Below are positions 28,098 through 50,552 of a stretch of DNA of 50,552 nucleotides, piece after piece. The notes under the pieces are model-generated. The model had not been told where the DNA came from. It did not search any database and worked only from the letters and a program-made list of their open reading frames with translations. The translations under genes were made by a program, and so were the position numbers. Origin of the DNA: Clostridia bacterium (GTDB taxonomy: Bacteria; Bacillota; Clostridia; Christensenellales; CAG-917); NCBI GenBank assembly GCA_028710495.1, contig JAQUST010000001.1:169853-220404 (forward strand), written 5' to 3'. The stretch's first letter is position 1. Each line of letters opens with the position of its first letter.

Positions 28098-28115
28098 CGT
28101 TTTATTAAAATATTC

Positions 28116-28239
28116 TTTGGGCAGGGTTGAATACCCGACCGGTGGTGATGCCGTTTTATACGGACAAGTCCAACAGCCCCAACAGCCGATGCGGTTAGAA
28201 TCCGCAACCGCCTGTAAAGTCAGCATGGGAGAGAGTAGC
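28116..28239 (+). ncRNA. FMN riboswitch (RFN element)
   Basis: gggcagggttgaataCCCGACCGGTGGTgatgcc...agccgatgcggttagaatccgcaaccgcc...agcatgggagagagta matches the RFN consensus blocks. Confidence 0.93.
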
Positions 28240-28264
28240 ATTATTGCACAACAGTGCTTTTTTT
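28236..28264 (+). terminator. Riboswitch expression-platform terminator 1
   Basis: agcattattgcacaacagtgct followed by ttttttt. Confidence 0.6.
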
Positions 28265-28308: not shown

Positions 28309-28341
28309 CCATCTATCTTGTCCAAGAAAAAGGATAGCAGG

Positions 28342-28938
28342 ATGAAAATTCAAACAAGAACAATAGCATTTACCGCACTTATGACAGCGCTTGTCACCAT
28401 TTCGACAGCATTTTTGGGCGTAAATATGGGCACAACTTACACAAATCTAGGCGATACTATGATTTTTGTGACCGCTGCCCTTTTTGGACCAGTTCCAGCA
28501 ATGATAGCAGGTGGATTAGGTTCTTTTATTGCAGATATGATGGTTTTCCCAATGACGATGTGGTTCACTCTTGTCATTAAAGGCATTGAAGGACTAATTT
28601 GCGGATTTCTTATTCGCATATTTTCGAAACTGAATTTCAAAAAACCAATAGGAATTATATTGAATTTTATCGCTATGATAGCAGCGGGCATCTGGATGAT
28701 GGCAGGCTATTTTCTTGCAGAGAGTTTATTGTACGGGACACTTGCAGCCGCTGTTTTTGCACTTTCAGCAAATGCGGTGCAAGCAACATTATCAATAACA
28801 TGCGCTTTGATTTTGGTTTACGGTTTTAAGCTCTGCAAGATGAGCATTGATCTCAAAGTTTTCAAATCCACTCATTCTAAAAGCACCAAAACGAACTCGA
28901 GAGATACAAGTACCGAAACACCGCCGACAATAGAATAA
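28342..28938 (+). CDS. ECF transporter S component (probable flavin/precursor uptake, under FMN riboswitch)
   Basis: TYTNLGDTMIFVTAALFGPVPAMIAGGLGSFIADM typical of NLGD-type ECF S components; RBS aagga before ATG at 28342. Confidence 0.85.
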   Translation: MKIQTRTIAFTALMTALVTISTAFLGVNMGTTYTNLGDTMIFVTAALFGPVPAMIAGGLGSFIADMMVFPMTMWFTLVIKGIEGLICGFLIRIFSKLNFKKPIGIILNFIAMIAAGIWMMAGYFLAESLLYGTLAAAVFALSANAVQATLSITCALILVYGFKLCKMSIDLKVFKSTHSKSTKTNSRDTSTETPPTIE

Positions 28939-29008
28939 ATGAAGATTAAAGCATAATTTCTTCTGCTTTCAAAAAAAATTAACAAAGCGACAACATAGTT
29001 GACTTTTT

Positions 29009-29314
29009 TGGAGCTGTTACCGGGATTTGCTCCGTTTCGCTTTGCTTCACTATCACGCCGGGGCTACGACCCTTCTTCTGCCACTGGCAGCGGGTCTTGC
29101 CCGTTCAAATCCCTTTTTACCTTAGAAACAAAAATAGTCCCCACTTGGGGACTATTTTGGTTGGAGCTGTTACCGGGATTTGCTCCGTTTCGCTTTGCTT
29201 CACTATCACGCCGGGGCTACGACCCTTCTTCTGCCACTGGCAGCGGGTCTTGCCCGTTCAAATCCCTTTTTACCTTAGAAACAAAAATAGTCCCCACTTG
29301 GGGACTATTTTGGT
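29009..29314 (-). repeat. Two 153-bp tandem units downstream of tRNA-Thr, each with a copy of the tRNA 3' end plus a terminator
   Basis: tggagctgttaccgggattt at 29009, 29162 and 29315 (the real tRNA); identical spacer and aaaatagtccccacttggggactatttt terminator in each unit. Confidence 0.95.
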
Positions 29315-29390
29315 TGGAGCTGTTACCGGGATTTGAACCCGGGACCTCGTCCTTACCAAGGACGTGCTCTACCGACTGAGCCATAACAGC
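29315..29390 (-). tRNA. tRNA-Thr(GGT), CCA encoded
   Basis: GCTGTTATGGCTCAGTCGGTAGAGCACGTCCTTGGTAAGGACGAGGTCCCGGGTTCAAATCCCGGTAACAGCTCCA; cloverleaf, anticodon loop TTGGTAA. Confidence 0.97.
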
Positions 29391-29524
29391 AAGGCTGAAA
29401 ATGACGGGATTTATCGCAAGTGTTAATGCAAAAGTTTCCTATCTTCAACCAGCACAGCAGTAAGATTATATTTTATAGTGCGAAATTTGTCAAACATTTT
29501 TGCAAACAATACATTTATTATATG

Positions 29525-33730: not shown

Positions 33731-33912
33731 TTCGATTATCCAACTTTTCTGTGTTTTGGAACTTTCTTTAATTCTTAATTCTTTCGGTTACCTACTATTT
33801 TGCGTATTCCAATTTTCTTGTGTTTTATTCTTTCGGTTTTCCAACTTTCTTGTGTTCTTCATTTTTTCGGTTTTCCAACTATTTTCGTATTCCAATTTAC
33901 TTGCGTTTTCAC
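33731..33912. repeat. Degenerate pyrimidine-rich tandem repeat (ttcggttttccaactttcttgtgtt-like units)
   Basis: Several imperfect copies of ctttcggtt(tt)ccaac/tccaattttcttgtgttt. Confidence 0.65.
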
Positions 33913-50099: not shown

Positions 50100-50260
50100 A
50101 AAACAATTTAATAGTTTGGAGGATTGGCTGGTGGCGCTTGCGACACTTCCGGTGACGGACTCCAACGCCTACCCTCAGGAGCGGTGTAACCGCGAAGCTT
50201 TCGTAGCTTGGTAACGCAATATAAAATAGAAAACAATTTAATAGTTTGGAGGATTGGCTG
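50100..50260 (+). repeat. Direct repeat (130-bp period) of tRNA-Ser upstream sequence plus tRNA 5' end
   Basis: aaacaatttaatagtttggaggattggctg at about 50101 and about 50231; only the second continues into the tRNA. Confidence 0.9.
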
Positions 50261-50335
50261 AGCGGTTTAAAGCGGCGGTCTTGAAAACCGTTGATGTGAA
50301 AGCATCCGCAGGTTCGAATCCTGTGTCCTCCGCCA
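50248..50335 (+). tRNA. tRNA-Ser(TGA), CCA encoded
   Basis: ggaggattggctgagcggtttaaagcggcggtcttgaaaaccgttgatgtgaaagcatccgcaggttcgaatcctgtgtcctccgcca; class II tRNA with variable arm, anticodon loop CTTGAAA. Confidence 0.95.
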
Positions 50336-50552
50336 AAACAAAACCCACAACATAGTTTGTGGGTTTCTTATTATTTTCGGACACAGGAAAACGAAATCGT
50401 GCACGCTCACTTTGTTCGCTGAGAACGAATCCTGTGTCCTCCGCCAAAACAAAACCCACAACATAGTTTGTGGGTTTCTTATTATTTTCGGACACAGGAA
50501 AACGAAATCGTGCACGCTCACTTTGTTCGCTGAGAACGAATCCTGTGTCCTC
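50315..50552 (+). repeat. 111-bp tandem repeat downstream of tRNA-Ser with tRNA 3' end copies and terminators; runs off the window
   Basis: cgaatcctgtgtcctc starts at 50315, 50426 and 50537; aaacccacaacatagtttgtgggttt terminator in each full unit. Confidence 0.95.

Follow-up and report, generated by a model that had tools for sequence, protein, structure and literature searches.

Two identical repeat units behind tRNA-Thr

The window analyzed here, a 50,552-nt stretch of contig JAQUST010000001.1 from a Clostridia bacterium of the order Christensenellales, carries an intact tRNA-Thr(GGT) gene on the minus strand (29315..29390; ARAGORN; Rfam RF00005, 73.6 bits). Upstream of the gene lies a consensus sigma-70 promoter (29465..29493, minus strand; TTGACA-17 nt-TATAAT, 12/12 matches). 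Two tandem units of 153 nt each follow the tRNA, the promoter-proximal unit 1 at 29161..29313 and unit 2 at 29008..29160 (both minus strand), and their sequences are 100% identical. Tandem Repeats Finder reports a period of 153, 100% matches and a score of 656, far beyond chance. The repeat continues for another 22 nt (29314-29335) as a third, partial copy, which the intact tRNA-Thr(GGT) supplies with its own 3' end. The first-pass annotation of this DNA had described two exact 153-bp units, the recurrence of the last ~20 nt of tRNA-Thr at 29162 and 29009, the same terminator in each unit, and the intact tRNA, now seen to have a perfect promoter, as the third, promoter-proximal copy; all of this is borne out. 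Absent from it were an inverted copy of the tail in each Thr unit and a second array, behind tRNA-Ser(TGA).

Both Thr units consist of a terminator, an anti-tail, a three-way-junction core and a tail copy. The intrinsic terminator, a hairpin of 12 pairs (AAAATAGTCCCCAAGTGGGGACTATTTT), occupies the interval between tRNA-Thr and the core of unit 1 (29284..29311, minus strand) and, in the same form, that between tail copy 1 and the core of unit 2 (29131..29158, minus strand). The tail copies, AAATCCCGGTAACAGCTCCA, were located by a tail-copy scan at 29162..29181 and 29009..29028 (minus strand) and correspond to positions 57-76 of tRNA-Thr, their source. The anti-tail GGGATTTGAAC, read from the sequence at 29256..29266 in unit 1 and 29103..29113 in unit 2 (minus strand), is the reverse complement of the tRNA-Thr T-loop/T-stem, with a longest complement to its own tRNA of 11 nt, and provides the 5' strand of helix P1. 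Because this inverted tail copy pairs with the tail copy, each unit closes into a hairpin with a three-way junction. The core model R1, described below, matches both units at 71.5 bits (29170-29271 and 29017-29118, minus strand).

Elsewhere in the window, an FMN riboswitch (28108-28240, plus strand; 76.7 bits) lies upstream of a gene at 28318-28938 (plus strand) whose product has a weak match to an ECF-type vitamin transporter component; this is ordinary control of riboflavin uptake. An imperfect tandem repeat of 83 bp in 1.9 copies is found at 33753-33909. Matches of its proteins, which include RNase J and the ECF transporter component, together with the named organisms that carry the same element, suggest that the window's genome belongs to uncultured gut Clostridia.

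Arrays at other tRNA genes of the same genome

The second host gene of the window, tRNA-Ser(TGA) (50248..50335, plus strand; ARAGORN), is followed by 111-bp tandem units (50336..50552, plus strand; Tandem Repeats Finder) that contain a terminator, an anti-tail and a tail copy, as in the Thr array. The anti-tail GGACACAGGA lies at 50379-50388 and 50490-50499, and the tail copy at 50427-50446 (all plus strand). The array runs past the window end and through an N gap, and its unit core is unmatched by R1. At the other end of this gene, a 30-nt segment made of a promoter-proximal stretch plus the initial 12 nt of the tRNA (50230-50259, plus strand) is duplicated at 50100-50129 (plus strand), 130 bp upstream of the original, which gives the 3' repeats a counterpart at the 5' end. 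Like tRNA-Ser(TGA), tRNA-Pro(CGG) on contig C3 has its own 5' end copied, in 33-nt copies (L018).

Further tail copies in this genome follow tRNA-Leu(TAG), tRNA-Met(CAT) and tRNA-Ser(CGA), and a decayed unit lies behind tRNA-Leu(CAG). Within the portion of the genome read, about half, every tail copy sits behind its own tRNA only. At tRNA-Met(CAT) (L048, in the region of C11:53003), three units of ~96 bp carry Met tail copies and the anti-tail GATTTGAA, with a core unlike R1. The assembly is a draft of 1.57 Mb in 39 contigs with 40 tRNAs, and the genome-wide copy number of units is not certain, since other arrays have N gaps or reach contig ends. Among contigs C3, C4, C11, C17 and C23, several stop at a tRNA CCA or shortly behind it; the arrays therefore probably break the assembly.

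A conserved core with covarying helices

One core is common to the Thr, Leu and Ser(CGA) units: P1 (tail:anti-tail), hairpin P2, GGCGNGATAGYGAA, a variable P3 and GCGGAGC. Across the family, a unit runs from the host terminator/spacer through the anti-tail and core to a tail copy with a CCA end. The anti-tail is an inverted copy of the T-arm of the host gene and ends in GAAC, while the conserved order within the core is hairpin P2, GGCGTGATA, hairpin P3 and GGAG. P1, formed by anti-tail and tail copy, closes the three-way junction in the transcribed sense. A pattern search for this core matched 7 of 60 genomes, namely the window's own and six relatives, and the reversed control gave 0 matches. 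Two pattern matches in genome contigs (L110, L114), which fall in Proteobacteria protein-coding DNA, seem coincidental and were discarded.

The covariance model R1 was built from 12 units and contains 26 pairs with strong covariation. It matches 56 of the 297 genomes and 28 of the 125 genera of the order, so that the absence of such units from relatives, which the first-pass annotation had held would speak for a one-off event, is not what is seen. Matches outside the order are rarer (13/392 genomes of the class sample, 9/399 of the phylum sample), and the carriers in these two samples include four single-contig genomes. In an alignment of 53 distinct units, standard pairs fill 94.0% of the P1 and P2 cells, vs 74.3% in shuffles, and the covariation score of the two helices is 0.484, vs 0.142 when shuffled (0/500 shuffles), with slid controls at 0.05-0.09. 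In P1 plus P2, G-U outnumbers A-C mismatches by 70 to 35 among units that were chosen by score, which itself favours G-U; this excess hints modestly at selection on the sense transcript. The unpaired letters of the core are conserved as well.

An Rfam search of the core, at the gathering threshold and at E<=1, matched no family. Hammerhead and other small ribozyme cores, inspected by eye, did not fit. Neither the scan of viral contigs with the exact pattern nor blastn against phages and plasmids returned units.

Units lie downstream of tRNA and tmRNA genes and carry the ends of their hosts

If any tRNA or tmRNA that precedes a unit within 700 nt on its strand is counted as a host, 83 of the 106 studied units have one (80 tRNA, 3 tmRNA). 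The rest comprise 14 units at contig edges and 9 with neither gene, several of the latter being later units of arrays or lying behind truncated tRNA 3' halves; the opposite orientation was found in 0 cases. Hosts include the tRNAs for Leu, Ser, Arg, Asn, Gly, Glu, Thr, Ala, Val, Lys, His and Asp, as well as tmRNA. The first unit starts 17-77 nt past the CCA, and the spacer in front of it holds a terminator-like T-run at 49 of 57 loci. In some Clostridia, a unit is located inside a tRNA operon with no terminator (Ser-X-Arg, L240; Ser-X-Ser, L215), and another lies within the operon His-X-Gln-Leu (L246). At L229, L242, L249 and L253, the same terminator/spacer stands after the tRNA and after the last tail copy, as expected if tail and terminator were duplicated around the core.

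tmRNA (ssrA) genes also precede R1-type units at L132, L180, L205 and L245. The units at L120 and L210 lie behind truncated tRNA 3' halves (Ala and Leu, respectively), as if an integrated island had taken them along to its distal end.

The 3' tail copy extends from T-loop position 56 or 57 to the CCA of its own host gene, and in 40 of the 50 complete tail copies positions 57-76 of the host tRNA are reproduced without change. The longest tail match averages 14.8 nt to the unit's own tRNA vs 5.6 nt to other tRNAs; for the anti-tail the corresponding means are 11.6 and 6.5 nt. Non-cognate or tail-less units occur at L121 (second unit), L181, L193 and L214, and may represent decay or may contradict the copying of ends from the target. 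Pairing in P1 reaches acceptor position 72 in 0/50 complete units, and the CCA end is single-stranded.

Related cores at different tRNA genes

Closely related cores occur behind different tRNAs of one genome. The Gly and Ser cores of G205 are 93% identical over 108 nt and differ in their cognate arms; the Ser and Leu cores of G178 are 89% identical over 87 nt, and their arms show 4 and 2 differences; and the Leu and Ser cores of G189, with different cognate arms, are 88% identical. Such near-identical cores with different cognate arms suggest that cores were copied recently and their ends replaced. A core tree, computed from 84 columns and with few well-supported forks, clusters by genome (41 changes vs a shuffled mean of 49.4; as low in 0/200 shuffles).

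In an empty-site test at tRNA-Asn in genus g4, the sister species were not empty and carried another unit type, and the flanks were too diverged; no clean pair of empty and filled sites was found. This second unit type (L150, L151, L153 and L154, at tRNA-Asn in the sister species) has the core CGACACTTC..GAAGTGGACGC and occupies the place held by the R1 type in other species of the genus. Its tail copy extends further into the T-stem in some cases.

Comparison with rtT and other repeats

So far, the rtT repeats, whose role is uncertain, have been regarded as an oddity of a single E. coli operon. The choice of the E. coli tyrT rtT repeat as the precedent in the first-pass annotation proves apt. 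At tyrV-rttR, the tail AATCCTTCCCCCACCACCA occurs three times, 178 bp apart, each unit holds the anti-tail GGGGAAGGAT, a partial reverse complement of the tail, and the rttR unit folds with the GGGGAAGGAT:tail stem closed. Like RtT (RF00391), the clostridial repeats are tandem units behind a tRNA whose 3' end is copied exactly at the end of each unit, and in every unit an inverted tail copy closes a stem around a structured core. In contrast to the E. coli units, which are found at tRNA-Tyr, the clostridial ones occur with cognate ends at many tRNAs and at tmRNA, and they usually have a terminator between the tRNA and the unit. The RF00391 model gave no match in the window or the tested loci at the gathering score, none in L115 at E<=1, and none in 40 relatives' genomes (0/40), while the E. 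coli control scored; R1 in turn reaches 4.1 bits at most on E. coli. Given a shared architecture with no cross-match of the models, the clostridial units are built like rtT and are not members of RF00391. E. coli rtT has been described as yielding an RNA that is freed from the tyrT transcript and may take part in the stringent response (PMC2965389, PMC4986893), and a set of enterobacterial BIME-type elements is reported to resemble rtT (PMC2965389). In the open-licence literature, we found no such units described outside rtT. A 2017 study reportedly lists 224 candidate RNAs. The clostridial units are a real and widespread variant of the rtT kind, apparently not yet described.

Three other systems share features with these units. 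Similar to the attL and attR sites of genomic islands and prophages, they duplicate the stretch between T-loop and CCA at the tRNA 3' end, and direct repeats of this 3' end flank each core at both boundaries. They differ in being gene-less and ~110-235 bp long, in having an inverted arm, and in the conserved hairpins of their core, and their carriers need no dedicated integrase. Integron attC cassettes are also short tandem units closed by imperfect inverted ends; whereas attC sites have R'/R'' boxes (GTTRRRY/RYYYAAC), the consensus ends of the clostridial units are GGGACTCGAAC and GGAGCGAGTCCC, and the ends vary by locus and follow the tRNA. REP/BIME elements with Y1 (RAYT) transposases are likewise dispersed, hairpin-forming and intergenic, but the clostridial units lie strictly 3' of tRNA or tmRNA, and Y1 transposase is absent from 12 of 16 carriers, the window's genome (G000) among them.

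Reverse transcriptase is absent from 11 of the 16 carriers, again including the window's genome, and neither enzyme is found in G000, G007, G011, G085, G123, G154, G178 and G288. G007 and G123, which hold 3 and 6 units, have one tyrosine recombinase each, and the window's genome has one plus a fragment. Carriers that lack both Y1 transposase and reverse transcriptase, and have a single tyrosine recombinase, indicate that no dedicated enzyme of these three classes is common to them. No enzyme known to us would generate an inverted end by copying the target.

Discussion

We give about an even chance to the reading that the Thr units belong to a widespread, rtT-like family of dispersed structured repeats at tRNA and tmRNA 3' ends, which move by host machinery, copy their ends from the target and expand in tandem. 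The anatomy of the units, their covariation, the rule of position and orientation, the cognate ends and the recent dispersal of near-identical cores among tRNA genes of one genome are established by the data above; the mode of movement is inferred. The T-arm sequence GTTCRANYCC is universal, and short homology within it would allow the core to move from tRNA to tRNA. The route would probably be host replication or recombination, with foldback template switching and gene conversion. If both ends are copied from the new target, the tRNA would remain intact, and extra units could then arise by unequal crossing-over between the identical tails. The unit would behave like a tolerated, perhaps selfish, passenger; alternatively, the strong conservation of the core could reflect a host function. 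Against this reading as a whole stands the fact that no movement has been observed. Only tentatively do we extend this reading to a gene-less mobile element whose direct and inverted ends are both copied from the target at each move by host machinery alone, with E. coli rtT as an old, fixed relative.

The main rival of the dispersing repeat is a functional small RNA, transcribed with the tRNA as part of an operon or by read-through, released during processing and acting in trans, whose P1 is maintained by compensatory selection and whose tail is kept by gene conversion with the tRNA. The architecture is that of the E. coli rtT locus, for which a role in trans was proposed; the orientation is always sense, some units lie within tRNA operons, G-U exceeds A-C, and the unpaired core letters are conserved. 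However, with a terminator-like T-run before 49 of 57 first units, most transcription should stop ahead of the core. The distribution is also patchy, with most genomes free of the units and the host tRNA varying freely, and several simultaneous arm differences on near-identical cores are hard to obtain by stepwise compensation. On balance we regard such a role as rather unlikely.

A mini integrative element or integron-like cassette, in which a recombinase recognizes the T-arm or the folded hairpin, inserts circles and restores the tRNA 3' end, is improbable. Tyrosine recombinase att sites typically show such a T-loop-to-CCA duplication and lie in tRNA or tmRNA genes; the direct tail repeats around each core and the units behind truncated tRNA 3' halves, which resemble attR, agree with such an origin. 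To this extent the alternative suggested by the first-pass annotation, duplicated att-like sequence, holds for the duplication of the tRNA 3' end; it does not account for the inverted arm or the conserved core, and carriers such as G007 and G123 have a single tyrosine recombinase. Moreover, a circle that integrated would carry in a foreign tail instead of the target's own, the inverted end lacks the GTTRRRY form of an attC R-box, the units hold no gene, and the searches of viral contigs, phages and plasmids gave none.

The same annotation had suggested a sponge or decoy in which tRNA 3'-end mimics occupy maturation enzymes. The exact copying of positions 57-76 with the CCA in 40 of 50 complete units would suit this role, yet the T-stem part of the tail is locked with the anti-tail, P1 stops short of position 72 in all 50 units, and no acceptor-like helix presents the CCA. 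Weakened by this unpaired CCA end and by the terminator before most units, and leaving the conserved core unexplained, the decoy idea is very improbable. A one-off duplication or assembly artefact, which might be suspected in a draft genome where some of these arrays contain N gaps or reach contig ends, has next to no probability and is refuted as an explanation of the whole family by the occurrence of the same family, with covariation, in many independent assemblies that include single-contig genomes.

Whatever their origin, copies of a tRNA tail are no proof of an integrated island, and these arrays offer a reason why draft assemblies of such genomes break at tRNA 3' ends. The recurrence of its architecture, with a conserved core of its own, at tRNA genes of many isotypes and at tmRNA in Clostridia turns rtT into a comparative problem, in which one can ask what maintains the core, by what route the ends are matched to each tRNA, and whether an RNA is made.
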